A stretch of DNA of 48,633 nucleotides from a bacterium (GTDB lineage Bacteria; Planctomycetota; UBA11346), in contig JAIFND010000021.1 of assembly GCA_020047915.1 (NCBI GenBank), forward strand, positions 1 through 48,633. Reading direction: 5' to 3'. Of this stretch, positions 5,948 to 39,255 are shown piece by piece. The notes beneath the pieces were generated by a model. It was not told where the DNA came from. It saw only the letters and a list, made by a program, of their open reading frames with translations, and did no database searches. Numbering within the stretch: the first letter of the stretch is position 1; each line of letters begins with the position of its first letter. The translations under genes were made by a program, and so were the position numbers.

Positions 5948-6601
5948 CTAGCGGCGCCCCACCAGATCCATCGCCTGGTCATGCTTCTGCCAGGCCCGGT
6001 CCAAGGCCTGGCGCAGGGGATCAGCCTGCATGATGACCCCCGTTTCGACCTCCACGCCACCGGCCACCAGCAGACTGGCCGTGAAATCGTGGCAATTTCG
6101 ACCCAAGGACCACGGGTGACAGGAGCCATGCCAGCCTGCACCGGGTCCCAGGACGCGCGGCCGTCCTGTCGTGTCGATCCAACTACGCAGGCAGGTGATC
6201 AAAGATGCGTGTCCTGCCGCAGAAAGCGGGAAGGTCCACACGCGGACCTGACGGGGATCGGTTCCGCCTCGCCGGTGTCGCCATCCACCCACGGCGTCGA
6301 TCTGAACTCCCCCCTCTCCCGAGAGTATCGCCAAGCGAAGGGCATCGGCACAGCCATCAGCTTCGCCTGTGATCCAGCGACGTTCACCGAAATGGACCAC
6401 GATCCAGGGGGCCGCCGCCGGACTGGGGGCCGCCGCCGGAACGAGATCCATGGGAAACAAGGTACGTTCCAGCATCAACCCGCTGTGGAAATCATCGGCA
6501 AAGGCCACCACCACGGCCTCCGTGCCAGGTGCTCTGGGGACTCCTCCAGAGCTGCAGCCGACCAGCAGAACGGCCAGGATCAGGACGGCGCAGTTCCGCA
6601 T
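5948..6601 (-). CDS. DUF2459-family lipoprotein
   Basis: The protein has 217 residues when started at ATG 6601. It begins with a lipoprotein signal peptide whose lipobox LLVGCSSG puts the lipidated cysteine at about residue 17. The rest resembles the DUF2459 (TIGR02117) family: an early DDFHSGLML segment where the family has a conserved histidine near a hydrophobic strand, a WIVVHFGERRWIT segment, and a late NCHDFTASLL segment with an Asn-Cys-His that looks like a catalytic triad region of a papain-like fold. Function of the family is not established. The gene lies 59 bp upstream of pilC on the same strand. A longer in-frame start at 6826 overlaps the divergent CorA-like gene and would bury the signal peptide, so I reject it. 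Confidence 0.65.
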   Translation of the reverse strand: MRNCAVLILAVLLVGCSSGGVPRAPGTEAVVVAFADDFHSGLMLERTLFPMDLVPAAAPSPAAAPWIVVHFGERRWITGEADGCADALRLAILSGEGGVQIDAVGGWRHRRGGTDPRQVRVWTFPLSAAGHASLITCLRSWIDTTGRPRVLGPGAGWHGSCHPWSLGRNCHDFTASLLVAGGVEVETGVIMQADPLRQALDRAWQKHDQAMDLVGRR

Positions 6602-6677
6602 GCCCAGAGGATCGCCGACCTGCCCGAGGCAGCAAGGAGCTTGCTCCTGGGGCCATACCTCGGCAGAGTGCCGCCGC

Positions 6678-7649: not shown

Positions 7650-8887
7650 TACCGCTCGCTGGCGTCAGCGTCCTGGTGTGGGGATTGGGTCGCCATGGCG
7701 GCGGCCTGGCCGCCGCCCGGATGTGTCGGGCCGAAGGCGCCCGGGTGACCATCCTCGACGCCAAACCGGCGGAACAGTGCGGCGTGGATGGCGCCAGCGC
7801 CCAGCACGAAGGCTTCACCTGCCTGGTCGGCGACGCCACCCATCCGGCCTTCGGCCAAGCTGATCTCGTCGTTCCTTCGCCCGCCATTCCACCGCGCGCT
7901 TGGCCGGCGCAGCATCCACCGATCGCCAGCCCCGAAGCCCTCGCCCTCGCCCGGCATCGCGGCCGCCGCATCGGCGTGACCGGGACGAAGGGAAAAAGCA
8001 CCACGGCGATGCTCGCCGGGGCGCTGCTCGGCTGGAAGGTCGCCGGCAACTCGTGGCGCCCGCTGTGCGAAGCCGTGATGGAGGATCCCCAGGCCGACCT
8101 GGTGTGCGAACTGTCCAGCTTCCAGTTGTGGTATCTGCGAGAAGCCGCGCCCCGCTTCGACGCCGCCATCCTCACCCTGCTGACCAGCGATCACCTCGAC
8201 TGGCATCCCGACCTGGCGCACTACCACGCCGCCAAGCTTGACCTGTTACGCTGGGCCACGGTTGTCGCCTGCGCCCCACAGGCCGCCGACCTGCTGCCGC
8301 ACGGGCTGCACCTGCTGCCGCCGGCCCACGAACCGGCGGCATCGGATCTGCTGGTCCCCGGACCGCACAACCGCGCCAACGCCGCCCTCGCCCTGGCCGT
8401 GGCGCAGTACCTTGGCGTCGATCACCCCGCCCTTGCCGAACGCCTGCGTCGGGCTGAACCGCTGCCGCACCGTTTGCGTACGGTGCATCAGCGATCCGGC
8501 CTCACCTTTGTCGATGATTCGATTGCGACCATGCCCGATGCCGCGATGGCGGCCCTCACCTCGTTCGACGGCCCGCTCGCCATCATCCTCGGCGGCAGTG
8601 ACAAAGGTGCCGATTTCAGCAACCTGGCCGAGGCCGTGGCCGCCCGTGGCGCCCGGCCGGTACTGATCGGCCAGATGGCGCCGCGCCTCCAGGCCGCCCT
8701 CCTCCGGCACGGGGTCACGCCCCATCTGGCCGCAAACATGGAAGCGGCGGTGCGTCTCGCCGCCAACAGCCTGCCCGGCCACGGTACCGTCCTGCTGTCG
8801 CCCGCCTGCGCCTCATTTGACATGTTTCGCGGCTTCGACCACCGTGGCGATGTCTTCGCTACCGCTGCCCGCTCCCTGTTCCCATAG
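7646..8887 (+). CDS. murD: UDP-N-acetylmuramoyl-L-alanine--D-glutamate ligase (MurD)
   Basis: This Mur ligase adds D-glutamate to UDP-MurNAc-L-Ala in the cytoplasm during peptidoglycan synthesis. A TTG start at 7646 overlapping the upstream stop (TTGA) gives 413 residues. It begins with a Rossmann-type GLGRHGGGLAAAR segment, then the ATP loop GTKGKSTT (113-120), ELSSFQLWYL (about 155-164), the HNRANAALA segment of the central domain, and the C-terminal VDDSIATMPDA with LGGSDKGADF. The length is slightly below the usual 430-450. No ATG fits: the next upstream in-frame methionine lies far inside the corA-like gene. It stands apart from any cell-wall cluster; neighbours are a metal transporter and nadB. 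Its presence means the organism makes peptidoglycan. Confidence 0.92.
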   Translation: MIPLAGVSVLVWGLGRHGGGLAAARMCRAEGARVTILDAKPAEQCGVDGASAQHEGFTCLVGDATHPAFGQADLVVPSPAIPPRAWPAQHPPIASPEALALARHRGRRIGVTGTKGKSTTAMLAGALLGWKVAGNSWRPLCEAVMEDPQADLVCELSSFQLWYLREAAPRFDAAILTLLTSDHLDWHPDLAHYHAAKLDLLRWATVVACAPQAADLLPHGLHLLPPAHEPAASDLLVPGPHNRANAALALAVAQYLGVDHPALAERLRRAEPLPHRLRTVHQRSGLTFVDDSIATMPDAAMAALTSFDGPLAIILGGSDKGADFSNLAEAVAARGARPVLIGQMAPRLQAALLRHGVTPHLAANMEAAVRLAANSLPGHGTVLLSPACASFDMFRGFDHRGDVFATAARSLFP

Positions 8888-8901
8888 CCATCCCCGGCTT
8901 C

Positions 8902-10548
8902 ATGCCTATCCTGCCGGCCATGTTGCGCACCACCCTCGCCCGTGGACCGACCACGCCGCGCCATCTGGTCGGCTTCGATCCACGTCGGCGACCCGGCCTG
9001 GAGACCGAAGTGCTGGTCATTGGCGGCGGCATCGCCGGCCTGTCCGCAGCCTTGGCCGCCGCGCATGCGGGGCGTGAAGTCCTGCTGCTATGCAAAGGCG
9101 AATTGCAGATCAGCAACACGGCCTGGGCCCAGGGTGGCGTCGCCGCCGTCCTCTCGACGGTCGAGCGATCAGCCGAGGACGCAGTCGAGTTGCATGTCCG
9201 CGACACTCTCGCCGCCGGGGCTGGGCTGTGCCACGAACCGGCCGTACGCCGCATCATTGGCCAGGCCGAAGCGGGCATGGATTTCCTGCGCCAGGCCGGT
9301 TGCCGCTTCGATGCCGGGAACGATGGCCTGCCGCAACTGACCCGCGAAGGTGGTCACAGCGCGCGCCGCATCCTGCACGCGCATGGCGATGCCACCGGGG
9401 CCGAGATCGCCCGCGCCCTCGTCGCGGCCGTGCGCGCCGACCCGCGTGTGACCATCATCGAACAGGCCTTCGCCATCGACCTGCTCGATCGCGATGGCCG
9501 CATCGGTGGTGCGACCTACGGTCACCGCGACGAGGTGTACGCCGTGCGGGCCGGGGCCACCATCCTGGCCACCGGCGGCTGCGGAATGGCCTGGCGCGAG
9601 ACGACCAATCCCCCCCTCGCAACCGGCGACGGTCTGGCGATGGCCTACCGGGCCGGAGCCGTGCTCGCCGATCTGGAATTCATGCAATTCCATCCGACCA
9701 CCCTGTACGTGGCCGGAGCTGGACGCCTGCTTGTCACCGAAGCGATGCGCGGTGAGGGGGCCTTGCTGAAGAATGCTGACGGCGAGCGCTTCATGCCGCG
9801 CTACCATCCCGATGCCGAACTGGCACCGCGCGACGTCGTTACCCGCGCCATCGTCGCCGAGATCCGGCGTACCGGCTTCCCGCACGTCTGGCTGGATGCG
9901 ACCCACCTCGGCAGCAGCTTCCTGCGCGAACGTTTCCCGACCATCCACCTGGCCTGTTCGCGTTTCGGCATCGATATCGCCCAGGCCTGGATGCCGGTCC
10001 ATCCCAGCGCCCACTATCATTGCGGCGGCGTAGTGTCCGACGCTTCCGGACGCACCACGTTGTCCGGCCTCTACGCAGCAGGCGAGGTCGGCTGCACCGG
10101 CTTGCATGGAGCTAATCGCCTGGCCTCGAACAGCCTGCTGGAAGGTGTCGTGGTCGGCCTTGCTGCCGGTGCAGGCGCAGCATCCGACTGCCTACCTCCC
10201 CCCTTGCTGCGGGCCGAGCACCGTGCCCCGGTAGTCGAAAACCTCGACGTCGCCGACCTTGTCGGATCCCTGCGCTCACTGATGTGGCGCAGTGTCGGCA
10301 TCGAACGCAGCGCCCGTGATTTGGCGGTGGCGCGCCGCAGCATCGCCTTCTGGATGGGCCACCAGGCTGGCGGCTTCCTGCGCACCCCGGCCGGCTGGGA
10401 ACTGCAGAACCTGCTCCTGGTCAGTTCGCTGATCGCCCAGGCCTCCGAACAACGTACCGCTTCGGTCGGCACGCATACCCGCAGCGACAGCGTGGGTGAC
10501 GTCGCCGACCAGCATTTTGCACTGCAACGGGAAGGACTCACCCCATGA
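8902..10548 (+). CDS. nadB: L-aspartate oxidase (NadB)
   Basis: This FAD enzyme oxidises L-aspartate to iminoaspartate, the first step of de novo NAD synthesis. The 548-residue protein has the dinucleotide-binding GGGIAGLSAALAAA near the N-terminus, the flavin loop NTAWAQGGVAAVL, the active-site HSARRILHAHGDATG, the substrate-region EFMQFHPTTLY, and the late AGEVGCTGLHGANRLASNSL typical of the fumarate reductase/NadB superfamily. The second ATG at 8920 is an alternative start; the first 30 residues are not conserved-looking. nadA and nadC are not nearby. The stop overlaps the start of a Rieske protein by 4 bp. Confidence 0.93.
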   Translation: MPILPAMLRTTLARGPTTPRHLVGFDPRRRPGLETEVLVIGGGIAGLSAALAAAHAGREVLLLCKGELQISNTAWAQGGVAAVLSTVERSAEDAVELHVRDTLAAGAGLCHEPAVRRIIGQAEAGMDFLRQAGCRFDAGNDGLPQLTREGGHSARRILHAHGDATGAEIARALVAAVRADPRVTIIEQAFAIDLLDRDGRIGGATYGHRDEVYAVRAGATILATGGCGMAWRETTNPPLATGDGLAMAYRAGAVLADLEFMQFHPTTLYVAGAGRLLVTEAMRGEGALLKNADGERFMPRYHPDAELAPRDVVTRAIVAEIRRTGFPHVWLDATHLGSSFLRERFPTIHLACSRFGIDIAQAWMPVHPSAHYHCGGVVSDASGRTTLSGLYAAGEVGCTGLHGANRLASNSLLEGVVVGLAAGAGAASDCLPPPLLRAEHRAPVVENLDVADLVGSLRSLMWRSVGIERSARDLAVARRSIAFWMGHQAGGFLRTPAGWELQNLLLVSSLIAQASEQRTASVGTHTRSDSVGDVADQHFALQREGLTP

Positions 10549-10865
10549 GCGATGATCTGCGCTGGAGCCAGGTCGGCCTGCCCGAGGAGTGGAAGGACGG
10601 GCAAGGACGCGTGGTAAACATCGGCGCCCGCCGGATCGCGGTGTTCCGTACCGGAGACCGATTCCGTGCTCTCAAGGACGCCTGTCCGCATGCCGGGGTG
10701 TCCCTGGCCTCGGGCTACTTGCAGGACGACTGCATCGTCTGCCCAGCCCACGCCTGGGCGTTCAGTCTCGACGACGGGCACTGCACCATGGGCCCCTCAG
10801 GGGCGCAGGCCGCCTGCTACCAGGTACGCATCCAGGACGGCAAGGTCGAGGTTGGCGTCCCCTAG
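10545..10865 (+). CDS. Rieske [2Fe-2S] ferredoxin-like protein (NirD type)
   Basis: This 106-residue single-domain protein has both Rieske cluster motifs: CPHAG (residues 47-51, Cys and His ligands) and CPAHAW (about 67-72). The spacing and lack of a membrane anchor fit the NirD/small ferredoxin group, which passes electrons to oxygenases or forms the small subunit of nitrite reductase. No nirB or oxygenase is adjacent. Its ATG overlaps the nadB stop (ATGA), so it is translationally coupled to L-aspartate oxidase; a role as electron acceptor or partner of NadB is a guess from this arrangement. Confidence 0.85.
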   Translation: MSDDLRWSQVGLPEEWKDGQGRVVNIGARRIAVFRTGDRFRALKDACPHAGVSLASGYLQDDCIVCPAHAWAFSLDDGHCTMGPSGAQAACYQVRIQDGKVEVGVP

Positions 10866-10914
10866 ACAGCCACTTGCCCTGAACCGGGTGGAGCATACAA
10901 GGCCCACCCCGGAG

Positions 10915-10989
10915 GCCCGAGTAGCTCAGCGGTAGAGCAGCGCATTCGTAATGCGAAGGTCGTAGGTTCAATTCCTATCTTGGGCACCA
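10915..10989 (+). tRNA. tRNA-Thr (anticodon CGT), CCA encoded
   Basis: A full cloverleaf can be drawn: acceptor GCCCGAG (10915-10921) pairs with CTTGGGC (10979-10985, one G-U), D stem GCTC/GAGC, anticodon loop TTCGTAA with CGT, T arm GTAGG-TTCAATT-CCTAT, discriminator A10986 and CCA at 10987-10989. The anticodon arm GCGCATTCGTAATGCG matches bacterial tRNA-Thr(CGU). A hairpin terminator follows 5 bp later. Confidence 0.95.
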
Positions 10990-11335
10990 GCAGCAAACCC
11001 CGGCCACAGCGCCGGGGTTTACTGTTGGCGCCCAACACAGGAATCCCGCTACCTCCGACCGCCGGGACGGCGGTCGGTACGCTCGGCCGAACGCCACGCA
11101 GGTGGCGTTCTACCGCCACAGGCGGTACCTCGCTTCGGTTCAATTCCCATCTTGGGCATCAACGAATAACCCCGGCCACAGCGCCGGGGTTTACTGTTGG
11201 CGCCCAAGACAGGATTCCCGCTACCTCCGACCGCCGGGCGGCGGTCGGTACTCTCGGCCGAACGCCACGCAGGTGGCGTTCTACCGCCTACGGCGGTACC
11301 TCGCTTCGGTTCAATTCCTATCTTGGGCACCAGCA
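10965..11335 (+). repeat. 172-bp tandem repeat containing the tRNA-Thr 3' end and four hairpins
   Basis: The tRNA 3' tail GGTTCAATTCCTATCTTGGG recurs at 11137 (two changes) and 11308 (identical, with CCA), spaced 172 and 171 bp. Each complete unit carries, in order, the tRNA tail, the terminator hairpin, and three more perfect hairpins: CCGACCGCC/GGCGGTCGG (11055-11077 in unit 1), GAACGCCAC/GTGGCGTTC (11089-11110) and TACCGCC/GGCGGTA (11111-11127). Between units the loops differ while the stems are kept (for example loop ACA versus TAC in the last hairpin). The third copy is cut short after CCA and skips to the AGGAATCCCGCTA part of the unit. No integrase or ORF is present. 10990-11396 holds nothing else that I can see. 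Confidence 0.9.
10995..11020 (+). terminator. Rho-independent-like terminator of tRNA-Thr
   Basis: AAACCCCGGC (10995-11004) and GCCGGGGTTT (11011-11020) form a perfect 10-bp stem with a 6-base loop; the 3' arm ends in TTT. A second, nearly identical copy sits at 11168-11192 inside the second repeat unit. Confidence 0.75.
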
Positions 11336-11396
11336 TAGGAATCCCGCTAGTCGCAGGATTCGACCCGTCTGGGGAAACTCCGCGAGATCTACGAGA

Positions 11397-11636
11397 TCAG
11401 GTGACCCGACGGTCCAGCCGGCGCTCCTCCTGGAGCCGTCGTTCTGTATCGAGCCAGTTCCTGAGTTCATGTCCGGGAACCGATCCCTGATCGACATAGC
11501 GGAAGTAGGCTCCGACGATCTGGGCATCCGAGGTCGGTTCGTATTCGGATGTGCCATGCTGGCAGGAACCGGCTGGCAGATCATCGTGAAATCCAGAGGG
11601 TGTGTTGTCCATATGTGCATCGTAACACAGTTCCAT
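11397..11636 (-). CDS. Small DUF2934-like protein
   Basis: This 79-residue acidic/basic soluble protein has a C-terminal half AYFRYVDQGSVPG followed by HELRNWLDTERRL, which resembles the DUF2934 pattern (A-Y-x-x-y...G...G-x-x-l-x-x-W-l-x-x-E). That family is small, helical and of unknown function. The first ATG is 11636; an alternative ATG at 11612 removes eight residues, and neither has a clear ribosome site. The gene is divergent from the MamK-like operon, and copies of the GGGG-type palindrome lie just upstream of it. Confidence 0.55.
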   Translation of the reverse strand: MELCYDAHMDNTPSGFHDDLPAGSCQHGTSEYEPTSDAQIVGAYFRYVDQGSVPGHELRNWLDTERRLQEERRLDRRVT

Positions 11637-11647
11637 TCACTGCATTC

Positions 11648-11718
11648 GGGGTAATTCTCTGATGGGGCGTTACCAGGACGGATGGAGAGATTCCCCAACG
11701 GTAGGGTGATCACCCCAT
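11648..11718. promoter_or_regulatory. Cluster of GGGGTGATNACCCC-type sites upstream of the MamK-like operon
   Basis: Four related elements lie in 70 bp: GGGGTAATTCTC (11648-11659), ATGGGGCGTTACC (11662-11674), GATTCCCC (11689-11696, reverse) and the palindrome GGGTGATCACCCC (11704-11716), the last ending 71 bp before the MamK-like ATG. The first and third elements are themselves an imperfect inverted pair. The same sequence type recurs before other polysaccharide and signalling units in the window, which argues for a shared regulator. Confidence 0.5.
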
Positions 11719-11787
11719 CGCCTTGCGCCTGATAAAACGGTACAGCGTGTTCCAACGGTATCTCACGCAAGAACTGAGGGGAAACCC

Positions 11788-12840
11788 ATGTCCGACCTCG
11801 TCTTTATCGGCATCGACCTCGGCACCAGCCGCACGTCGATAGCAACCTCCACCGGTCAACGCGAGACGATCTGGTCGTACGTCGGCTATCCCCGTGATCA
11901 CGTAGCGAAGAAACACTTCGGCGGCCGCGACATCATCTACGGCAAGGAGGCCCTCGATGGCCGCCTGTCCCTTGAGCTCTGCCGTCCCATGGCCGGATCA
12001 TCCGTTAAACGTCGCGGGGCCCAGGACGATGCCAGACGCAAGAAGGCTATCAAAGACCTCCTTCATCATGTCATCCAGATCGCGAGAATACCCCATGGTT
12101 CCACCATTTACGGCATGATCGGGGCACCCGCCGAGGCGTCGATGGAGGGCCGGGCGACCATCCTTGAGGCGGTGGACGAGTGCATCGATTCGGTGATCAT
12201 CTGCTCGGAACCCTATGCGGTGGCCTACGGTCTCGACTTCATCGATGACACCCTGGTCATTGATTGCGGGGCCGGCACCACCGATCTGTGCCGGTTGCAT
12301 GGTACCATGCCCAAGGCCGAGGATCAGCGCACCCACGAGATCGCTGGCGATTCGATCGATCAGGAGCTGGCCCGCCTGGTGAGGGAAGCCTACCCCGAGG
12401 CGCAATTCTCGATCAATATGATCCGGGCCTTCAAGGAGAAATATTCCTCGGTCTCGAAACGCATGGATCCGGCCATCGTCAGCATGCCCGTGGCAGGGAG
12501 ACCGCAGCAATTCGACATCACCGAACTGGTGTTCAAAGCCTGCTACACCCTGGTTCCACCTACGGTCACGGCGCTGCAGGAGCTGATCGCCACGTACGAC
12601 CCCGAGTACCAGGAGAAGATGCGCTCGCATATCCTCCTCGGCGGTGGCGGTTCGGTGATCAGGGGGCTCGGTTTGGCCATTGAACAGGCCCTTGAGGAGT
12701 ATGGCGGTGGTCACGTGATCACAGTCGCGGAACCACAGCATGCCGGAGCCGATGGCGCCCTGAAGTTCGCCCTCGATATGCCAGCGGAATACTGGAATGA
12801 ATTCCGCTCCATCCGCAGTCTTGAGATGGCCGCGACGTAG
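11788..12840 (+). CDS. MamK-like bacterial actin
   Basis: This 350-residue protein has the actin ATPase fold: phosphate-1 loop GIDLGTSRT (8-16), phosphate-2 VIDCGAGTTDL (157-167) and adenosine loop LGGGGSVIRGL (284-294). It is closer to MamK than to MreB or ParM in features I can recall: YVGYPRDH after the first loop, SEPYAVAYGLD (140-150, with the expected catalytic Glu141), a GT-x-P-x-x-EDQ segment (172-180), and the ending MPAEYW (331-336). MamK filaments position magnetosomes, but no mam gene is present here. Downstream, 36 bp away on the same strand, is the gene for the enzyme that starts exopolysaccharide synthesis. AGGGG lies 8 bp before the ATG. An orphan MamK-like filament with a role in polysaccharide assembly or positioning is inferred from context. 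Confidence 0.85.
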   Translation: MSDLVFIGIDLGTSRTSIATSTGQRETIWSYVGYPRDHVAKKHFGGRDIIYGKEALDGRLSLELCRPMAGSSVKRRGAQDDARRKKAIKDLLHHVIQIARIPHGSTIYGMIGAPAEASMEGRATILEAVDECIDSVIICSEPYAVAYGLDFIDDTLVIDCGAGTTDLCRLHGTMPKAEDQRTHEIAGDSIDQELARLVREAYPEAQFSINMIRAFKEKYSSVSKRMDPAIVSMPVAGRPQQFDITELVFKACYTLVPPTVTALQELIATYDPEYQEKMRSHILLGGGGSVIRGLGLAIEQALEEYGGGHVITVAEPQHAGADGALKFALDMPAEYWNEFRSIRSLEMAAT

Positions 12841-24033: not shown

Positions 24034-25167
24034 ATGACTGCCGCCGAAACCATCGCAACTCCACCGGACCAACGCCCGCCGCGTCTGGTCTTCATCGACG
24101 TGGCGCGCAGCCTCGCCATCCTCGTCGCGCTGGCGGCCCACGCCGTCGCCATCTTCGGAGTCTGGCCGGCATTGCCGCCTGGACTGGTCAAGGCCGCTGG
24201 AAACGCGCTGTTCTACACCGCTACGCCAACCTTCTTCCTGCTTTTCGGCGTCATGCTGGAACTGGTCCAGGTCCGCCGCTGCGAGCGCGATGGAGCCCTG
24301 GCCGTCAGCCGCAGCCTTGGCCTGCGGGCTATGCAATGCTGGCTGGGCCTACTGCTCGGCATGCTCTGCGCCTGGCTCGGGGGACGTCTGACCAGCGGAC
24401 AATTGCCGGATGCCCTGCTGAATCTGATCGATACGCCAAACTCTGGCATCCTGCGCTTCTACACCGCCGCCATGCTCTTGTGCATCCCGGTGGTCATCCT
24501 GCGTCCGCGTTTCGGCCCTGCCCTGCCCATCGTGCTGGCCGGGGCACTGTGGCTTGGCGCCCCGCTGCTGCCGCTGCTGCCCTGGCCCAATGCTGAGTCG
24601 AAGTGGGGCTTCCTCTGCGGCTTCCTTGTCGGCAATCCACCGATCTGGAGTGGCGGATCACTGTGGCACAACCTCAGTGTGGTGTTTGTAGGCATGGCGT
24701 TGGGCCATCACATGCGCACTCGGGTGCAGGCCGGCCTGGTCCCGCTGGGAGGCGTTCCGGTACGCCTGTCCGTCTTCGCCTGCCTGCTCGGGATCGGTTG
24801 GTGCAGTTGGACGCTTGGACCGCAGGATCTGGTCCAGGGTTACTTCGGCACGGGCAGGCACCTGCGCACCTCCTGCCATCCTGCATACTTCCTCATCTCG
24901 ACCCTGTGCGCCCTGGGGCTGATCTGGTTGACGCAGCGCAGCTACCCGCTGAAAACGACCGTCAGGCAGGTGCGGCTGCCGATCCTCGCCCTCGGTCGTC
25001 ACTCCCTGCTCGCATTCGCGGCCGGCTGCGCGGTACTCAACCTGGTCCCTCCGGGATGGATCCCCCCCCTGTGGCTGGGCGCGACCCTGGTGATCCTGCA
25101 TCTGAGCGGAATCGTCCTGCTGGCTCGGGTCGCCGATCTGTGGGCATCGCACCGGGGTACGGCATGA
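24034..25167 (+). CDS. Acyltransferase-3 family membrane protein (polysaccharide O-acylation)
   Basis: This 377-residue protein has about ten transmembrane helices and the signature start of acyltransferase-3 proteins, RLVFIDVARSLAILVALAAH, with the Arg/Asp and His expected at the ends of helix 1. The family moves acyl groups (often acetyl or succinyl) from cytoplasm to extracytoplasmic sugars. Some parts (for example the long C-terminal helices with WGLGRHSLLAF-like ILALGRHSLLAFAAGC) resemble OpgC, which succinylates glucans. It is the first gene of the rightward operon and overlaps the next by 4 bp (ATGA). Confidence 0.83.
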   Translation: MTAAETIATPPDQRPPRLVFIDVARSLAILVALAAHAVAIFGVWPALPPGLVKAAGNALFYTATPTFFLLFGVMLELVQVRRCERDGALAVSRSLGLRAMQCWLGLLLGMLCAWLGGRLTSGQLPDALLNLIDTPNSGILRFYTAAMLLCIPVVILRPRFGPALPIVLAGALWLGAPLLPLLPWPNAESKWGFLCGFLVGNPPIWSGGSLWHNLSVVFVGMALGHHMRTRVQAGLVPLGGVPVRLSVFACLLGIGWCSWTLGPQDLVQGYFGTGRHLRTSCHPAYFLISTLCALGLIWLTQRSYPLKTTVRQVRLPILALGRHSLLAFAAGCAVLNLVPPGWIPPLWLGATLVILHLSGIVLLARVADLWASHRGTA

Positions 25168-26402
25168 GTGCCGGCGTCTCGGCATGGCCTGGACGCATGC
25201 TCGCCCTTGGTTTCGCATTCTTCGCCGGATGCCCCGTGCTGGCCAATCTGGCTGGAACCTACCTGGCCGATGGTCAGAGCTATATGGTTACCGCGGGAAT
25301 CGCTTGCGGATTCCTGCTGCTGGTCGTCCTCGGTGCCCTGCGTTTGGGTGTCCCACGCGGTGCAATCCTCACCCTGAATGGGCCGCACAGGGCCCTGGCC
25401 ATCATCGGCGGCCTGTTCTGGACGTATTGGATCCTGCTCAACCAGATCAGCCCTTCGCCCCAGCCGATGATGCAGCACCAGGTGATGCAGGTCGCGGTGT
25501 GGATGCTGCTGCCGATGCTGCTGTTCACCATATGGCGGCGCTGGATCGACGCCTACCTTGTCCTCCGCCTGCTGATCGCGCTTGATGCATTGTTCATACT
25601 TGGTCTCAGCCTGCGCTGGCTGCTTGACCTCGGTCTCAATCACGGTGGACGCTGGCACGCCGGCTACTCGTTGGAGGCCATCAGGAGCGGCCGGTATGCC
25701 ACGATGTCGCTGTGGGTGTTCGCGCTTGCCGCCTTGTGTCCGGCAGAGGTCGTTCCCCGGCGGCTGAAACTGCTCGCCCTGGCCGGCATGCCGCTGGCCC
25801 TGCTGATGATGGTCGCTGCCAACTCGCGTGGACCGTGGCTCGCCCTGGCCATCACCGTCACCGCCACCGGCGTTTCCCTGGCCCGCCTGCTGGCGCTGCG
25901 GATCGGACAGGACGTGAGGGTCCTGGCGGTGCTCCTGCTGGCGGTGGCAGGCGTTGCCGCCTTCATCGCCTGGCAGATCGGGGGCGTGGAGAGCGATTTC
26001 GAGCGCCTGTTCACCCTGACCAGCGATGGGGGCAGCGCCGCCGGTCGAGTCACCCTGGTCGCCGACCACCTGCGCCTGCTCCGCGAAACACCGCAGGCCC
26101 TGCTCTCCGGCTGCGGCTACGGCCATGGCCTGTTCTATCCGCACAACGTGCTGATCGAAGCGCTGGTCAACGGCGGACTGCTCGCCTGCCTGCTGCTGCT
26201 GGCCATGTATGCGACAGCGGTGCATGCCTGGCTGGGTCTATGCCAGCGTGATGACGTGCCCTGCCTGCTCGTTTTCGGCCTGTTCGTGGTCAGCCTGTCC
26301 GGCAGTCAGGTCAGTGGTTCGATCGCCGGCGACCTGACCTGGTTCTTCCCGCTCCTGCTCCTGCTCACCATGGCCAGACGGCCGAACATGGACCGCTTAT
26401 GA
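25164..26402 (+). CDS. O-antigen ligase/Wzy polymerase-like membrane protein
   Basis: This 412-residue protein has about ten to twelve transmembrane helices. A large periplasmic loop region carries GRVTLVADHLRLLRETP and GYGHGLFYPHNVLIEALVNG, where the PHN-x-x-x-E motif is typical of the Wzy_C (O-antigen ligase/polymerase) family. Together with Wzx, Wza and the Wzc-like protein it would complete a Wzy-dependent pathway by joining repeat units in the periplasm. ATG 25164 overlaps the preceding stop; the frame further upstream is a shadow. Confidence 0.82.
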   Translation: MSAGVSAWPGRMLALGFAFFAGCPVLANLAGTYLADGQSYMVTAGIACGFLLLVVLGALRLGVPRGAILTLNGPHRALAIIGGLFWTYWILLNQISPSPQPMMQHQVMQVAVWMLLPMLLFTIWRRWIDAYLVLRLLIALDALFILGLSLRWLLDLGLNHGGRWHAGYSLEAIRSGRYATMSLWVFALAALCPAEVVPRRLKLLALAGMPLALLMMVAANSRGPWLALAITVTATGVSLARLLALRIGQDVRVLAVLLLAVAGVAAFIAWQIGGVESDFERLFTLTSDGGSAAGRVTLVADHLRLLRETPQALLSGCGYGHGLFYPHNVLIEALVNGGLLACLLLLAMYATAVHAWLGLCQRDDVPCLLVFGLFVVSLSGSQVSGSIAGDLTWFFPLLLLLTMARRPNMDRL

Positions 26403-27151
26403 ACCGACTGCATGCCATCATACCCATGGCCGGCGAAGGGGCTCGTTTCGCCAGCATCGGCTGCGACCTGCCCAAGCCGCTGGTTCCGCTGCAGGGCCGA
26501 CCGTTCCTTTACTGGTCGGCGGCCGCCCTGCTCAAGAGCCTGCCGTTGGCGTCGCTGACCTACGTGGTGCTGCGACAGCATGTCCGCGAGCATGCCATCG
26601 ACGCGGTGATCCGCGCCTTCTTCCCCCAAGCACGCATCGTCGTACTCGATACCGTGCTCAATGGTCCGGTCCTGACCTGCCTGGCAGGTGTACTCGACCT
26701 GGATGACGATCTTCCGGTGCTGTTCAACGACTGTGACCACCTGTTCTACAGCCAGGCCCTGGTGCGCTGGGTCACTGGCGAGCGCGGCCTGGAACCCGGT
26801 CAAGGAGGCAGCCTCCTCTCCTTCGCCTCGGACAACCCGGCGTTCAGCTACCTCACCGAATCGTCGCCAGGACAGGTGCAGACCACGGTCGAGAAGCGGG
26901 TGGTCAGCAACCACGCGATCTGCGGATCCTATCTTTTCCGCAACCGTTCGGTGTTCTGCGCTGCAGCCGAGATCTACCTCGGCGCCTGCCCGTATGGCGA
27001 GTTCTACATGAGCGGAGTCTACAACCCGCTGATCGAACAAGGCTTGACGGTCAATCATCTGCCGCTCGACCTGCACCTGTCGTTCGGCACCCCGGCTGAA
27101 CTCGCAGCGATGGCTGACAATGCCCTGCTCGGCTTCTACCGTGATCAATGA
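26399..27151 (+). CDS. Sugar-phosphate/polyol nucleotidyltransferase-like protein
   Basis: This 250-residue protein has the nucleotidyltransferase Rossmann-type fold. The N-terminal loop is IIPMAGEGARF (7-17), where G-x-G-x-R binds the NTP; the lysine follows in LPKPLVPLQGRPF. FNDCDHLFY (about 109-117) supplies the metal-binding Asp. Such enzymes link a phosphorylated sugar or alcohol to CMP, UMP, GMP or dTMP. Its stop overlaps the start of the membrane-kinase fusion, and a HAD phosphatase follows, which suggests a dedicated activation module (kinase, nucleotidyltransferase, phosphatase) for a polymer decoration. The donor nucleotide cannot be told from the sequence. Confidence 0.85.
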   Translation: MNRLHAIIPMAGEGARFASIGCDLPKPLVPLQGRPFLYWSAAALLKSLPLASLTYVVLRQHVREHAIDAVIRAFFPQARIVVLDTVLNGPVLTCLAGVLDLDDDLPVLFNDCDHLFYSQALVRWVTGERGLEPGQGGSLLSFASDNPAFSYLTESSPGQVQTTVEKRVVSNHAICGSYLFRNRSVFCAAAEIYLGACPYGEFYMSGVYNPLIEQGLTVNHLPLDLHLSFGTPAELAAMADNALLGFYRDQ

Positions 27152-29072
27152 CCCGTCGCTGCTCCTTGCCGCCATCGCGTGCCTGTTCCTCGGGCATGTG
27201 CTCAAGGCAGCGCGTTGGGGACTTTTCGTCACCCCCTTTCAGGCCGTACGCAAGGCGCATCTGTTCCGCGCCCTGGCCATCGGTTACGCCCTCAACATCA
27301 TCCTGCCATTCCGCGTCGGGGAACTGGCGCGGGCCTGGGTCCTCACCCGCCTGAGCCGGCTGCCGTTCAGCCAGTCCCTCTCGACCATCATCCTCGACCG
27401 CCTGTGCGACCTGCTCGTCGCCATCGCCCTGATCACCGGACTGGTCGCCTGCGGTTGGTTGGCCGTGCCGTTGCTCTGGCCCGTGGTGATCGCTGCCCTG
27501 ACGCTGGCGGTGCTGCTGATGGCTGCCAGCAACCACTGGCTGCTCAAGCGGACCTGCTTAGCCCTGGCGGCACCTTTCAATGTGCCGATCAGGCGCTGGC
27601 TGCTGATGTGCTGCTGGTCGTTTTTCACCGCCGTACGTATGCTTGCACGGCGACGTACCGCAGGGTTGTTCGCCGCCTACACCCTCGCCATGTGGGCGGC
27701 CTATCTTGCCGCCTTCCTCCTGATCAGCCATGCCCTGTTCAGCGATCATCCGGGCAGCTTCGTCCAACGCCTTGCCGACCATTACCTGCCCAGCAACCTG
27801 CACCGCAGCGTCCTCGACCTGCCGGTCGGACCAGACGAACTGCTATATCTGGCCTTCCTGCTGGTCCCCCTGGCTTTGATCCAGTTTTATGGCGTCATTC
27901 AGGGGCGCCTGTACCGCGCCATCCCGCTCATCCACGACTCGATCACCCGCTCCTTCCAGCGCATGTTCTCGGCCCAGGAGCATGTCCGGCTGCTGCCATT
28001 CCTCGATGAGGGGGATCAGCAGCTCTACCTCGAATCGTTCTTCACCTCGTACGACAATCATGCCGTGCTCACCCTGCTGGAGCAGAACCAGGACATCGCC
28101 GTGCTGCGCAATGTCTCAGGCGGTTCGAATGCCATCACCATGCTCGCCCTGCACCAGGACCGCATGATCTACCGCAAGTACGCCATCGGCCCGGAAGCGA
28201 ACCGGCTGCGTCTGCAGCATGCCTGGATCGTCGAGAATGCAGGGCGCTTGCCCCTGTCACCGGTGCTGGCCTGCAAGGATGTCCCGGGATACTTCTCCTA
28301 CGACATGCCGCATGCGGCCCAGGCCTACGATCTCTTTACCCATATCCACAGCCACGATTCCGGCCGCTGCTGGCGGCTGTTGCATGTATTGCTCGACACC
28401 CTCGCCGAACGGTTGCACCAGCCCAGCCTCAAGCCCAGCGACCCGAACCTGGTCAAAGCCTATCTGCGGGACAAATACCTGGCCAACCTGCGCCTGGTGC
28501 TGCAGGCTCCGAGGTGCGCTGCGCTCGCGGCGCCGGATGAATTGCTGATCAACAACCTCCCTTGCCGTAACCTCGCCTGGTTCGCCGACCGCCTCGATGT
28601 CTCCGTCCTTGCCCGGATGTTGGCCAGCGACCGCACCTGCACGGTGCACGGTGACCTGACGGTGGAGAACATCATCATCGATCCGGGATCGCAGGCCGGC
28701 TACTACCTGATCGATCCGAACCCAGTGAACATCTTCAATTCGGAGATGATCGATTTCGCCAAGCTGCGCCAATCGCTGCACTTCGGCTATGAATTCCTCT
28801 GTCGCGAATCGATCTGCCGGATCCAGGGCCGGACGGTGATCTTCCGCCATGCGATCAGCAACTCCTACCAGGACCTATGCGCCCGCTTCGACGCTTACCT
28901 GCTTGATCGGTTCGGCGAAGCAGGCCTGCGTAGCGTATGCTTCCACGAGCTGGTGCACTACGCGCGCATGATGCCCTACAAGATCAGGCAGGGCGAGACC
29001 TCCGCCCATATCTTCTACGCCTCCCTGGTCGTCCTGCACAACCGTTTTGAGGAGCGCTTCCATGTCTGCTGA
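27141..29072 (+). CDS. Fusion of an UPF0104/LPG-synthase-like membrane domain with an APH-type kinase domain
   Basis: From GTG 27141 the protein has 643 residues. About 1-260 is a multi-helix membrane domain with the hallmark FRVGELARAWVL plus STIILDRLCDLLV of the LPG_synthase_TM (UPF0104) family, which includes flippase-like and AglD-type proteins. About 290-640 is an aminoglycoside-phosphotransferase/choline-kinase-like domain: an N-lobe with SGGSNAITMLAL and a probable ATP lysine in YRKYA; the catalytic loop VHGDLTVEN with Asp505 and Asn510; and the metal Asp525 in YLIDPNP. I know of no characterised protein with this fusion. The preceding gene's stop overlaps this start by 11 bp, and a HAD phosphatase overlaps its end by 11 bp. 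ATG 27120 would lie further inside the preceding gene and adds nothing recognisable. Confidence 0.75.
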   Translation: MINDPSLLLAAIACLFLGHVLKAARWGLFVTPFQAVRKAHLFRALAIGYALNIILPFRVGELARAWVLTRLSRLPFSQSLSTIILDRLCDLLVAIALITGLVACGWLAVPLLWPVVIAALTLAVLLMAASNHWLLKRTCLALAAPFNVPIRRWLLMCCWSFFTAVRMLARRRTAGLFAAYTLAMWAAYLAAFLLISHALFSDHPGSFVQRLADHYLPSNLHRSVLDLPVGPDELLYLAFLLVPLALIQFYGVIQGRLYRAIPLIHDSITRSFQRMFSAQEHVRLLPFLDEGDQQLYLESFFTSYDNHAVLTLLEQNQDIAVLRNVSGGSNAITMLALHQDRMIYRKYAIGPEANRLRLQHAWIVENAGRLPLSPVLACKDVPGYFSYDMPHAAQAYDLFTHIHSHDSGRCWRLLHVLLDTLAERLHQPSLKPSDPNLVKAYLRDKYLANLRLVLQAPRCAALAAPDELLINNLPCRNLAWFADRLDVSVLARMLASDRTCTVHGDLTVENIIIDPGSQAGYYLIDPNPVNIFNSEMIDFAKLRQSLHFGYEFLCRESICRIQGRTVIFRHAISNSYQDLCARFDAYLLDRFGEAGLRSVCFHELVHYARMMPYKIRQGETSAHIFYASLVVLHNRFEERFHVC

Positions 29073-29643
29073 ATCCGCCCTGCTCTTCGATCTCGACGGC
29101 ACCCTGGCCGACACCTGGGAGGTCAACTATCTGAGCTATCGCGACAGCCTGGCCGAGGTGGGTATAGACTGCACCCGCGATTCCTTCACCCCCTGCTATG
29201 GCTGCCACTGGCGTGATTTCCTCCCCACACTCGCTGGTTCCCGCGACGAGCTCCAGTTGCAGCGCATCCATCGGCGCAAGCAGGAGATCTATCCTCAGCA
29301 CCTTGGTGCGGCGCAGGCGAACATCCCGCTGGTCGGACTGTTGCGTTCATCCAGGCTGGCCTGGCCTATCGGTCTGGTCACCAGCGCCTCGCGCGACAAC
29401 ACCGAACTGCTGCTTACCCATCTCGGCCTCGCCGACGACTTCGATCACATCGTCACCGGTGATGACGTCATGGCGGCCAAACCGCATCCGGAAGGCTACC
29501 TGCGCTGCCTGGCCGGACTGCGCGCCGGCACCGCGGGCAGCCTGGCCTTCGAGGACTCGAAAAACGGCATTGCCGCTGCAAGGACGGCTGGCCTGACCGT
29601 GATGATCGTCAGCGGATTCCCAGCGCAGCGCAGCGACGCTTAG
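29062..29643 (+). CDS. HAD-superfamily phosphatase
   Basis: This 193-residue protein has all HAD motifs: LFDLDGTLAD (nucleophile Asp at residue 10 and general acid Asp at 12), TSASRDN for motif II, the lysine in AAKPHPEGY, and AFEDSKNGIAAARTAG for motif IV. A helical cap follows motif I, as in the beta-phosphoglucomutase/phosphoglycolate phosphatase group. It would dephosphorylate a small metabolite. TTGAGGAGCGC before the ATG gives a good ribosome site, and the start overlaps the kinase fusion by 11 bp, so the two are made together. Confidence 0.87.
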   Translation: MSAESALLFDLDGTLADTWEVNYLSYRDSLAEVGIDCTRDSFTPCYGCHWRDFLPTLAGSRDELQLQRIHRRKQEIYPQHLGAAQANIPLVGLLRSSRLAWPIGLVTSASRDNTELLLTHLGLADDFDHIVTGDDVMAAKPHPEGYLRCLAGLRAGTAGSLAFEDSKNGIAAARTAGLTVMIVSGFPAQRSDA

Positions 29644-32420: not shown

Positions 32421-33206
32421 TCATTGCACCATCGATCCCGGCCGGCTCAGTCCGATGATCGCCTCGGCAGGAGTTGCGGAACTGGTCCGCCCATCGCAAT
32501 AGACGTAGTTGGCCTTGCCGTGATGCCGATTCGGGTCGCCGTTGCAGCGATCGCTGGCGGTGGCCGGTCCGGTAAAGTCCCAATTGGTGAACTGCAACCG
32601 ACCGGCCACAAGGAGCAAGCGCAGGACATGGTCAGTGCGCATGTAGGAGTCTCCAGCCAGGATTCGCTGGCTGACCTGACGAATCCGGCCAAGCGGCCAG
32701 AATACGAAGTTGGGGTCCGGAGCCGCCCAGGTGAATCCGGGCGCCGAGACACTGCAGTGCAAGGACGTGTAGTCTTGGCCAGGCCGGTCGTTCATGCCAT
32801 AGCCAGAGTCCCACTCGGCCCCGGCCCCGATGCGCTGAAAGCTGGGGCACCGCGTCGCCTTGGCCCAGCTCGCGGCGTGGGCATCCGGCAATTCATCGGC
32901 GTCGAGATATGGGCTAATGCTGTAGGCCCAGCTGACCCGTCCGCTGGCTATGGGCGGCAATTCGACCGCCGGCAACAATCCATCGAAGTCTTCAGCGTAT
33001 GCGAAGGTCGCCAGCCCGACCTGGCGTAGATTATTACGACAGCTGGTCTCCTGCGCAGCCCGCCGGATCAGGGTGATCGCGGGTACGAGGAGACCGGTGA
33101 GCAGGGCGATGATGGCAAGTGTCATCAACAGCTCGACCAGCGAGAAGGCAGTCCTCTGGCAACCAGCCGATAACCAGGCAGTTGGCGGCGGCTGATGCCA
33201 GAACAT
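32421..33206 (-). CDS. Type II/IV pseudopilin-like protein with H-X9-DG tail
   Basis: This 261-residue protein has a prepilin N-terminus: a short basic leader and then AFSLVELLMTLAIIALLTGL (residues 20-39), with the processed Phe and the +5 Glu in place; the residue before the cut is Ala instead of the usual Gly. The C-terminal region has H-X9-DG (HHGKANYVYCDG), the hallmark of the large PVC-type prepilin families (DUF1559-like). The body CRNNLRQVGLATFAYAEDFDGLLP is also characteristic. It would be exported and assembled with a type II secretion or type IV pilus machine. It follows the secreted esterase with a 3-bp gap on the same strand. Confidence 0.88.
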   Translation of the reverse strand: MFWHQPPPTAWLSAGCQRTAFSLVELLMTLAIIALLTGLLVPAITLIRRAAQETSCRNNLRQVGLATFAYAEDFDGLLPAVELPPIASGRVSWAYSISPYLDADELPDAHAASWAKATRCPSFQRIGAGAEWDSGYGMNDRPGQDYTSLHCSVSAPGFTWAAPDPNFVFWPLGRIRQVSQRILAGDSYMRTDHVLRLLLVAGRLQFTNWDFTGPATASDRCNGDPNRHHGKANYVYCDGRTSSATPAEAIIGLSRPGSMVQ

Positions 33207-36251: not shown

Positions 36252-37463
36252 TCAAGTAATTGCGCGCTTCAGCCCATTTTCGCTGCGCACACTGAAGCCA
36301 TAGGCATCGACACCATGGACGTTATGGACGTCGGCGAGATAGGCGCCCCGACGCCAGGCATATCCCCAGGCGATACCGATCGTCTTGCAGGCCTGGCGCA
36401 GCAACTGGACCTGGGAGACCTGACCGTCTTCCCGCCAACTGATCGGGAAGAAACGGAAGCCAGCCCGACGATGGACCAGGAGCAGCAGCAGATGGACGTT
36501 GAAAGTCAGATCATCGGCCAGATTCAACCACGCCGCTTCACGTATCCAGGCGACCCGGAAGGCGTTCAGACCAGAACCAAGATCCCCAACCCGTCTTCCT
36601 GAAACAGCCGTAAACAAGGCGTTGAAGAACATGTTTCCCCAGGTGCGATGCCAAGCATATCCGGAGCGCCGCGAACCGAGGTCAAAACGCGAACCAAGCA
36701 GCGCATCGATGCCATCATGCAAGCAACCTGCGGTGATAAGCGGGGCAAGGTCGGCGGGGTCCGCTTGGTCGTCACCATGCACCACCACAATCCAGTCGAA
36801 ACCGCCAGCGACGGCATAGGCGAACGCGACCTTGTGCGAGCCACCGAGATTGATGTTGCGGTCGTTCTGCAGCAGCGTTCCAGGTACACCCAAGTTGGCC
36901 AACGCGGCTGCAGCAACGGTACACGAGCCGTCACGACTGCCGTTATCCACCACCAGCACCTCCTGGATATGCATGCCAAGATGTTCACGGATGCGCTCCA
37001 GCACCCGTGCGATCCGCCTCTCGCACTCATACATGGGGACGAAAACAAGGATGCGTGGCTTGCCGGCCGATAGGGTAGGTTGACGGCTCTCCCCTGGGCT
37101 GGTCAGCCAAGCCATGAACAGGTAGTTGGCCAGGAACGTGGCAGGGGTCACGACGAATTTGGCGACCAGGGGGTGTATCGCCGTATGCAGGATGATCTCA
37201 CCTACCGCCCAGGAGGCGATGATGATGGCAAACAATTGAAAAGCAGCGTAGGCAGCAAAACGCCGTCGCTCTCGACCACCTTCACATTGGAAGATCCGAC
37301 GCACACTGACGAGATACACCCAGAGCACCGCCAGCGAGGCGCCTAGAGCATTGGCTATAGACGGATCGACATGAAGACGGATGAGCAGGATAAATACAAG
37401 GAAGTCCAGGATCCATCCCAACCCGGAAACCAGACCAAACTGGATCAGGCGAGTACTCTGCAC
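36252..37463 (-). CDS. Fusion of GtrA-like membrane domain and GT2 (dolichol-phosphate-mannose-synthase-like)
   Basis: This 403-residue protein has an N-terminal GtrA domain (about 5-120), a four-helix membrane unit with GLGWILDFLVFILLI at the start. A GT2 domain starting RILVFVPMYECERRIARVLE (about 137) follows, with VDNGSRDGSC and the metal site HGDDQADPAD. GtrA proteins flip or anchor polyprenyl-phosphate sugars made by GT2 partners. Here the GtrA part precedes the transferase, while in most known fusions it follows. It probably makes a polyprenyl-phosphate-linked sugar used by the divergent GT-C-like protein. The start is GTG at 37463. Confidence 0.82.
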   Translation of the reverse strand: MQSTRLIQFGLVSGLGWILDFLVFILLIRLHVDPSIANALGASLAVLWVYLVSVRRIFQCEGGRERRRFAAYAAFQLFAIIIASWAVGEIILHTAIHPLVAKFVVTPATFLANYLFMAWLTSPGESRQPTLSAGKPRILVFVPMYECERRIARVLERIREHLGMHIQEVLVVDNGSRDGSCTVAAAALANLGVPGTLLQNDRNINLGGSHKVAFAYAVAGGFDWIVVVHGDDQADPADLAPLITAGCLHDGIDALLGSRFDLGSRRSGYAWHRTWGNMFFNALFTAVSGRRVGDLGSGLNAFRVAWIREAAWLNLADDLTFNVHLLLLLVHRRAGFRFFPISWREDGQVSQVQLLRQACKTIGIAWGYAWRRGAYLADVHNVHGVDAYGFSVRSENGLKRAIT

Positions 37464-37602: not shown

Positions 37603-39255
37603 ATGCTCACCACTATGGCCGAATACAGCGCCTGCGTGTCCCCGACGGCCACCACATGGATTTGGCCTCTTCTGGCCGGCTTGGCCCTGGTCGGTCTCTG
37701 TATGCGTCTCGCCATTGGCGGCCTACCGGTGCAGACCTCCTATCCCTTCGCCGCCAGCATCCTGCTTGACGCTGGCTCGCGCCTAATCGATGGCCAAGTG
37801 CCGTACCAGGATTTCCACACCCCGATCGGCTTCACCTACCTGGGTCTGCTTGCGGGATTCCTACGTCTGGCCGATGGTCTGCCTCATGCCCTGGCCCTGC
37901 TCAGCGCGAGTCTGGGGATCGCAGTGGGAGTATGGGTCTGGTGGCTCGCCACCGCCCGTTGCCATCCTCCGCTTGCAGCCGCGGTAGCGCTGCTGTGCGG
38001 ATTGCTCGCCGCATCACCAGCCCTATTCGGCTACGGCGCCCTGGAGGTCAGCTACGGTGGTCATTACTCGCGTCTGGCCTGGGCCGTATTCGCCTCGGTC
38101 ATTATTCAGTCAGCCGTGCCCATGCACGAACCCGCTCGCCTGACGCGGACATATGGCGAGGGCCTGGGCCTGGGCCTGAGCCTGGGCCTGCTTCTGGGGA
38201 CGAAATTCACCTTCCTGTTCGCCGCGATTGCGATCCTGGCCACCTCGTGGCTGTTCCGCCGGCCGGATCGCCGACTGCTGATGGCCATCCTGCTGGGCGC
38301 GGTGGTCGCCATCCTCGCAGGCCTGATGGCCAGCGGGGCATCAATGACCGAGTACCTGCGTGACTGCAGCGGTCTCAGCGGTTCGGTCTCACTCTTGGAC
38401 CTCCTCCGGCTCTATCTTCGGAAGCTTGATTTCCTTGCCCTGGCCCTGCTCGCCGCCGTAGCCATCTGGACGTGGCCGACGCATCGCAGGTCATGGCGCT
38501 GGCCCCTGCCAGAGGCACCCGTGATGGCCGTGCTGGTGTTGATGCTCGGCCTCGTCCTCTCTGCCACGACCGGCATCGAGAACGCCAGTCCCAGTTACGT
38601 TTTTGCACTGCTGATCCTGGTCAGCAGCCGGAACGCCGGGGAGCGCGGCAACCTGTACGGGGGTCGACTGGTCTGCGGAGCCATGCTCTGCGCTTTCAGT
38701 GCACGTCTGGCGCTACCGATGATAAAGGGGCCCTATGCTGCCGCCTCGCAGAACCTCATTCTGCCGGCTGGGCCCTGGCGTGGCCTGGACTTCATGCCAG
38801 GCGTGGCGGGGAGAGCCGAGCGGGCAGAGCTGATCAGTCAGGTGTGGATACAGCCGCGCAACATGATCGACAACCTCTGGTACCTGTATCTTGAAGATGC
38901 CGACCGCATGCTGCGACCATTGGTCGGATCAGGGGATCGGGTGCTGTCCTTGGATTACATCAATCCGTTCCCCTACCTGCTGGATCTGCCGGCCCCGCGC
39001 GGAGACCATCTCTATTGGAGCTTTGACCGCAACGTCAGTCCACAGACGGCCCCGGCCCCGGCTGCCCTATGTGCCGATGCCGACTGGGTGATGGTGCCCA
39101 GGCTGGAGCTCTTCCACGATTCATCATCGATGAAGCAGCATCTCTATCTTCCCTGGATCAAGGCCCATTACCGATTGCAGGAGAGCAGCCCATGGTGGGA
39201 CTGCTACCGCCGCAGGGTGGCCCAGGGTCCAACCGTGGGGCTCACTCCTCGATGA
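37603..39255 (+). CDS. Polytopic membrane protein, GT-C glycosyltransferase-like
   Basis: This 550-residue protein has about ten transmembrane helices and a soluble C-terminal domain (about 395-550). Near the first periplasmic loop it reads DGQVPYQDFHTPIGFTYLG, where the Asp-Phe-His and the position after helix 1 resemble the first catalytic loop of GT-C glycosyltransferases (PMT/ArnT type), which take sugars from polyprenyl-phosphate carriers. The divergent neighbour is a GtrA-GT2 fusion that would make such a carrier, so the two likely work together. ATG 37618 is an alternative start. The 3' end overlaps the convergent Wzc-like gene by 14 bp. Confidence 0.7.
   Translation: MLTTMAEYSACVSPTATTWIWPLLAGLALVGLCMRLAIGGLPVQTSYPFAASILLDAGSRLIDGQVPYQDFHTPIGFTYLGLLAGFLRLADGLPHALALLSASLGIAVGVWVWWLATARCHPPLAAAVALLCGLLAASPALFGYGALEVSYGGHYSRLAWAVFASVIIQSAVPMHEPARLTRTYGEGLGLGLSLGLLLGTKFTFLFAAIAILATSWLFRRPDRRLLMAILLGAVVAILAGLMASGASMTEYLRDCSGLSGSVSLLDLLRLYLRKLDFLALALLAAVAIWTWPTHRRSWRWPLPEAPVMAVLVLMLGLVLSATTGIENASPSYVFALLILVSSRNAGERGNLYGGRLVCGAMLCAFSARLALPMIKGPYAAASQNLILPAGPWRGLDFMPGVAGRAERAELISQVWIQPRNMIDNLWYLYLEDADRMLRPLVGSGDRVLSLDYINPFPYLLDLPAPRGDHLYWSFDRNVSPQTAPAPAALCADADWVMVPRLELFHDSSSMKQHLYLPWIKAHYRLQESSPWWDCYRRRVAQGPTVGLTPR

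Follow-up and report, generated by a model that had tools for sequence, protein, structure and literature searches.

A flippase-like membrane domain fused to an APH-fold kinase in a candidate sugar-activation module of a planctomycete

In this study, we have examined a 48,633-nucleotide stretch of DNA (the window; contig JAIFND010000021.1 of assembly GCA_020047915.1) from a planctomycete of the UBA11346 lineage, in which three overlapping genes encode a nucleotidyltransferase, a fusion of a flippase-like membrane domain with a kinase, and a HAD phosphatase. We judge the chances to be about even that these genes constitute a conserved module for the activation of a sugar that enters a polyprenyl-phosphate glycosyl donor for the decoration of a surface polymer. 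We also propose, tentatively and with some doubt, that they represent an undescribed, widely transferred pathway in which the kinase that channels a rare sugar into the nucleotide-sugar pool forms the cytoplasmic part of the flippase by which the polyprenyl-linked sugar is later exported, such that donor supply and flipping would be coupled. No description of the fusion or of the module was found in the open-access literature searched.

The three genes and their catalytic residues

The genes and the two halves of the fusion are arranged as follows.

26399-27151 (+): nucleotidyltransferase, 250 amino acids, sugar-1-phosphate type with an NTP_transf_3/RmlA-like fold
27141-29072 (+), GTG start at 27141: fusion of an LPG_synthase_TM (UPF0104, flippase-like) domain and an APH-fold kinase, about 640 amino acids
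27150-27970 (+): membrane half of the fusion, PF03706 model positions 32-233 (Pfam)
27969-29069 (+): kinase half of the fusion, with K353, HGDLTxEN (510-517), IDPN (531-534) and DxxK (545-548)
29062-29643 (+), ATG start at 29062: HAD-IA phosphatase of the beta-phosphoglucomutase-like subfamily, 193 amino acids

The first-pass annotation of this DNA had described three genes with 11-bp overlaps, the middle one joining a UPF0104-like domain to an APH domain with an intact HGD-x4-N motif and a later aspartate, and both descriptions hold. With its GTG start, the fusion overlaps the nucleotidyltransferase gene by 11 bp (32 bp if the alternative ATG at 27120 is used), and the HAD gene in turn overlaps the fusion by 11 bp; residues H510-G511-D512-x4-N517 and D532 are present. 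The fusion occupies one stop-free frame, with no stop or frameshift between the membrane and kinase domains, and Pfam matches LPG_synthase_TM at residues 11-206 (E 1.7e-20) and APH at residues 342-525 (E 1.3e-5). The upstream Wzy/O-antigen-ligase-like gene ends in a 4-bp overlap with the start of the nucleotidyltransferase gene (ATG at 26399), so that translational coupling of the module inside a Wzx/Wzy exopolysaccharide locus is probable.

In the kinase half, K353, HGDLTxEN (including H510, D512 and N517), IDPN (including D532) and DxxK are invariant across 40 members of the family, which rules out a broken kinase or pseudo-domain. An AlphaFold2 model of the whole fusion, built with the family alignment, had a predicted local distance difference test (pLDDT) score of 89 and a predicted template modelling score of 0.78, with a poorly defined linker at residues 278-289. 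Foldseek searches with the modelled kinase half returned fructosamine-3-kinase (FN3K; 3jr1), APH(3')-Ia, LicA (4r7b) and methylthioribose kinase (2pyw), with a probability of 1.00 against APH(3'), FN3K and LicA. As modelled, the kinase half has the APH fold and its catalytic residues (Lys, HxDxxxxN and the metal-binding Asp). APH-fold anomeric kinases are established, namely AmgK, NahK and methylthioribose kinase. The Pfam APH model (PF01636) matched just 6 of 39 diverse full-length members; automatic annotation therefore names the protein after its membrane half only.

By its GxGxR...PKP signature, paired metal-binding aspartates and fold, the nucleotidyltransferase is of the sugar-1-phosphate (RmlA/GlmU-like) type. 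It matched Pfam PF12804 (E 1.1e-6), and its profile found 4evw as the top entry in the PDB (E 1.9e-28), followed by HddC (6jq8/5xhw); the AlphaFold2 model (pLDDT 95.8) gave Foldseek matches to 4evw, RmlA and an inositol-1-phosphate CTP transferase. GxGxRF, PKP, D111xD113 and E165-K166 are invariant in 27 members. Every NCBIfam score for a named nucleotidyltransferase equivalog was far below its cut-off, and we therefore claim no named activity.

The DxDxT nucleophile motif and the cap subfamily place the third enzyme among the HAD-IA sugar phosphatase/beta-phosphoglucomutase-like proteins. It matched Pfam HAD_2 (PF13419; 98.8 bits, E 5.2e-28) and NCBIfam PGMB-YQAB-SF (E 1.6e-28, under the family cut-off), and the best PDB match of its profile was 3kbb, the sugar phosphatase TM_1254; D10/D12 of the DLDGT motif, T107, K140 and E164-D165 are conserved in 30 members. 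The beta-phosphoglucomutase equivalogs were rejected, with scores of 71.1 versus a cut-off of 189.4 bits for TIGR01990 and 100.2 versus 153.35 bits for TIGR02009. From Bacillota to Proteobacteria and Planctomycetota, the three enzymes show little or no variation in their catalytic residues.

The membrane half of the window fusion scored 74.1 bits against PF03706 (cut-off, 33.4), and the model was matched above its gathering score in all 39 diverse full-length fusions. It retains the P63-F-R-x-G67-E signature and about five hydrophobic helices, with invariant residues at R32, P63, G67, F153, W192 and Y195; hydropathy and positive-inside charge, averaged over 67 sequences, predict a periplasmic N-terminus and a cytoplasmic kinase. 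In profile searches of the source genome, an assembly that is 79.8% complete, the fusion was the sole LPG_TM (PF03706) protein detected. PF03706/UPF0104 is the flippase domain of MprF and is also joined to the glycosyltransferase AglD (PMC5898192); the fused domain is therefore a reasonable candidate flippase for a polyprenyl-phosphate-linked sugar.

Distribution of the fusion and its partner genes

Relatives were collected by searching 84,980 species genomes with the kinase half; 80 of 108 confirmed relatives were kept and, together with one plasmid, gave 81 loci. These loci span roughly ten bacterial phyla and about 80 genomes, with hosts that include Bacillota, Planctomycetota, Alpha- and Betaproteobacteria, Desulfovibrionaceae, Leptotrichia, Treponema, Longimicrobiaceae and Armatimonadetes, as well as the gut bacteria Gemmiger, Lachnospiraceae and Blautia. 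The kinase gene is a fusion of at least 600 amino acids (about 640) in 74 of the 81 loci, which rules out an assembly artefact or an oddity of the window; likewise, two genes joined through a lost stop can be dismissed, as the fusion is the usual state among relatives. The first-pass annotation had raised the case of relatives that encode the two domains apart, which does not apply in those 74 loci. Of the seven shorter kinase genes, two (L025 and L090) are cut by contig ends, one (L053) is split, and four belong to the same family and have no membrane half:

L076, 7287-8306: membrane-less kinase
L102, 10010-10993: membrane-less kinase
L088, 1585-2868: membrane-less kinase
L095, 9428-11008: membrane-less kinase

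The HAD gene is divergently oriented in L088 and L095. The split gene, at 9192-11110 of L053 (Leptotrichia hongkongensis), consists of frames of 135 and 481 amino acids divided within the membrane half.

The nucleotidyltransferase gene is present in 73 of the 81 loci and the HAD gene in 78, and both directly adjoin the fusion in 55. The first-pass idea of coupled activation by such a module, whose membrane-tethered kinase appears to be active, is supported.

Within the phylum, 391 further genomes yielded no match to the kinase half; the full fusion as query gave only partial membrane-half matches there, nearly all in frames of 360-400 amino acids; the one long-frame match that was read had no kinase. 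A plasmid of Pseudochrobactrum algeriensis has counterparts of all three genes, arranged as in the window (39, 30 and 37% identity) and with GtrA and GT2 (family 2 glycosyltransferase) genes ahead of them. Given this absence within the phylum and the relatives in distant taxa, the window copy looks to have been acquired, though its G+C content is close to that of the contig (62.9% versus 64.3%). Such a wide spread makes an old origin of the architecture probable.

Partner genes were counted in the 43 loci with at least 6 kb on either side of the module. A GT2 of one HGDDQ-motif subfamily is present in 40 of them, an SDR epimerase whose profile matches UDP-glucose 4-epimerases in 22, a GT-C-like membrane protein without a Pfam match (mostly 520-740 amino acids) in 21, and GtrA in 15. 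The GT2 profile matches the dolichol-phosphate mannose synthase (DPMS) of P. furiosus (5mlz, 1.4e-7) and ArnC (9hwj, 4e-4), by which the near-constant fourth partner is a dolichyl/undecaprenyl-phosphate-type GT2. GT2 occurs without a detected GtrA in 25 of the 43 loci, which leaves the fused membrane domain as a flippase candidate. Two window genes may supply the corresponding functions.

36252-37463 (-): GtrA-GT2 fusion, 403 amino acids, candidate polyprenyl-phosphate-X synthase plus GtrA (Pfam and module-GT2 profile)
37603-39255 (+): multi-spanning membrane protein, 550 amino acids, tentative candidate for an extracytoplasmic GT-C glycosyltransferase (sequence inspection), divergent from the GtrA-GT2 gene

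Both genes had been passed over in the first-pass annotation. The GtrA-GT2 protein matches Pfam GtrA at residues 8-121 (2.3e-11) and GT2 at 140-307 (2.2e-11), and it scored 274 bits against the module-GT2 profile versus 123 bits for the next best protein in the 391 genomes of the phylum. It contains the only GtrA and the only module-type GT2 detected in the source genome by profile searches; a single open reading frame of this kind, with GtrA first, was not seen in the 81 related loci. A partial GT2 in another genome of the same family (G113) was ruled out as a second module copy; it is an HGDGQ-type GT2 beside an EamA-like gene.

Some further records bear on the family. The 6.6-kb unannotated "Bacteriophage sp." record MT837550.1, from human faeces, encodes at 725-1801 a kinase half that is 37% identical over 97% of the query, and it may be a bacterial fragment. 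Plasmids of Rhodobacterales and Pseudomonas carry paired related nucleotidyltransferases with an HAD gene (L104, 4310-6768; L105, 4594-7459; L106, 5998-9154), in some cases beside cupin genes; these nucleotidyltransferases are labelled glycosyltransferase family 2 or hypothetical protein and are probably misannotated.

Proposed pathway and rival explanations

We postulate that a cytoplasmic sugar phosphate would be dephosphorylated by the HAD phosphatase and re-phosphorylated, most likely at C1, by the APH-fold kinase, attached to the membrane domain at its cytoplasmic end. The nucleotidyltransferase would then form the nucleoside diphosphate (NDP) derivative NDP-X, on which a dedicated SDR epimerase may act in about half of the loci, and X, the putative sugar, would be moved to polyprenyl phosphate by the DPMS/ArnC-related GT2 (in the window, presumably the protein fused to GtrA). 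It can be envisioned that polyprenyl-phosphate-X reaches the outer leaflet via the LPG_synthase_TM domain, together with GtrA where present, and that X is finally added to the surface polymer by a GT-C enzyme, for which the protein at 37603-39255 is the candidate. The suggestion in the first-pass annotation of a link to lipid or sugar flipping is supported by the main partner, a GT2 of the polyprenyl-phosphate type, which a minority of loci combine with GtrA; its phosphocholine-like or phosphodiester decoration is not supported. No LicD- or TagF-like transferase, judged from representative sequences, was found among the neighbour families that recur in at least four loci, and a Lic-type phosphocholine module is ruled out by the absence of LicD among them.

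Several observations weigh against this proposal. The PF03706 match begins at model position 32-33, the first transmembrane helix being absent family-wide and the N-termini short, and flipping by the fused domain is assumed by analogy with MprF alone. The membrane-less kinases in four loci show that the fusion, though usual, is not obligatory, and that the reactions can do without the membrane half. Both the window and the 15 loci counted above have GtrA alongside the fusion; hence the fused domain does not simply take the place of GtrA, and a reading of it as a GtrA replacement is weakened. About 6.6 kb separate the window's GtrA-GT2 gene from the module, with the gene on the opposite strand, and the protein at 37603-39255 matched neither Pfam, nor PDB sequences, nor the module GT-C-like profile. 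The pairwise distances of the two fusion halves, the nucleotidyltransferase and the HAD phosphatase correlate as matrices (r 0.85-0.92; 0 of 500 permutations), which speaks for the module, but the correlation partly reflects the phylogeny that the hosts share. Finally, the substrate and base specificity of the module are not readable from sequence.

One explanation may be that the membrane half is an anchor only, which holds the kinase and its soluble partners near the GT2 for channelling while GtrA or another protein does the flipping. The membrane-less kinases point in this direction, since they occur in otherwise similar loci, one of which (L102) has GtrA; so does an unrelated E. coli plasmid locus that combines nucleotidyltransferase, GtrA, GT2 and HAD genes with another membrane domain fused to a PRK-family kinase. 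However, the membrane half has invariant residues of its own that exceed the needs of an anchor, and the 25 loci with GT2 and no GtrA would be left without that flippase; we find this explanation rather doubtful. It is unlikely, in our view, that the membrane half instead takes up a free or polymer-released sugar or alcohol, which the fused kinase would trap by phosphorylation and the nucleotidyltransferase would activate. The lic genes do follow such a transporter-kinase-nucleotidyltransferase logic (LicB and LicA for choline), LicA is among the Foldseek matches of the kinase half, and the kinase is predicted to lie at the cytoplasmic end of the membrane domain; however, what PF03706 relatives are known to do is flip lipids, not take up solutes (PMC5898192), the constant partner is a polyprenyl-phosphate GT2 with no recurring LicD-like transferase, and the HAD phosphatase would have no explained role.

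Alternatively, the kinase could phosphorylate a polyprenyl-phosphate-sugar or a lipid alcohol in the membrane, with the nucleotidyltransferase and HAD phosphatase as a side branch; the phosphodiester head-group decoration suggested earlier would be a variant of this scheme. The kinase is at the membrane in 74 of the 81 loci. Kinases with lipid-linked sugars as substrates are found in the APH/PK-like superfamily. Yet the nucleotidyltransferase, which shows linkage to the kinase, belongs to the sugar-1-phosphate type, the nearest kinase folds act on soluble small molecules, and no phosphotransferase for phosphodiester transfer recurs, which makes this a very improbable account.

Comparison with known systems and the surrounding locus

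The postulated order of dephosphorylation, C1 phosphorylation and nucleotidylation is reminiscent of the recycling of N-acetylmuramic acid (MurNAc) by MupP, AmgK and MurU, which are likewise an HAD phosphatase, an APH-family anomeric kinase and a nucleotidyltransferase. MupP converts MurNAc-6-phosphate to MurNAc (PMC5371407). Unlike the fusion, the kinase of that pathway is soluble and unfused, and its product goes to peptidoglycan, not to a polyprenyl-phosphate GT2; furthermore, the window nucleotidyltransferase and HAD phosphatase scored far under the MurU (18 versus 250 bits) and MupP (26.2 versus 359 bits) cut-offs, and both assignments were rejected.

Three-component extracytoplasmic glycosylation systems (GtrA/GtrB/Gtr*, CsbB/GtcA/YfhO and the polyprenyl-phosphate-pentofuranose systems; PMC11127046) share with the module a DPMS-like GT2 and the requirement for a flippase, and GtrA (in some loci) and GT-C-like membrane proteins are found beside the module. 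The postulated use of NDP-X by the GT2 to form polyprenyl-phosphate-X would have its counterpart in these systems. Those systems, however, draw on housekeeping NDP-sugars or phosphoribosyl pyrophosphate, whereas the module has a dedicated phosphatase, kinase and nucleotidyltransferase, with the flippase-like domain on the kinase. In the MprF flippase domain and the C-terminal domain of AglD, a homologous PF03706 domain is also joined to a cytoplasmic enzyme, there a lysyltransferase or a glycosyltransferase; here the partner is an APH-fold kinase, and the membrane domain lacks helix 1 of the Pfam model. LicA-LicB-LicC-LicD similarly combines an APH-fold kinase, a nucleotidyltransferase and a membrane component, but the module has an HAD phosphatase and a polyprenyl-phosphate GT2 in place of LicD and a choline transporter.

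The E. coli plasmid locus mentioned above is analogous.

6007-12172 of NZ_CP145712.1 (L107): 557-amino-acid nucleotidyltransferase, GtrA, GT2, phosphodiesterase-like protein, HAD and class II aldolase

Its kinase belongs to the PRK/uridine-kinase family and is fused to a different membrane domain in a 660-amino-acid protein; with a kinase of another fold and no similarity, it is ruled out as the same system. This second fusion suggests that tethering of a kinase to the membrane was reached more than once.

In the window, domain searches place the module within the following locus.

12877-41392: Wzx/Wzy-type exopolysaccharide locus, including GT4s
12877: Bac_transf initiating transferase
18388: Wzx-like
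20592: Wza
24034: acyltransferase-like
24603-26402: Wzy-like (Wzy/O-antigen-ligase-like)
30955: WcaF-like acetyltransferase
31554: GT2
39242: Wzz/Wzc-like

At 32421-33206 (-), next to an 879-amino-acid esterase-like protein, lies a prepilin-type protein with an N-terminal methylation motif, DUF1559-like by inspection.

In conclusion, a conserved family found in roughly ten phyla carries no annotation other than "lysylphosphatidylglycerol synthase transmembrane domain-containing protein", since Pfam largely fails to recognise its kinase half. The four-part module gives this family a concrete, testable activity (kinase, nucleotidyltransferase and HAD phosphatase) and a likely route to the surface sugar X. 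As GtrA-type proteins have no direct evidence of flippase activity behind them (PMC11127046), the module would also offer a simple setting in which to ask whether polyprenyl-phosphate sugars are flipped by PF03706 domains.

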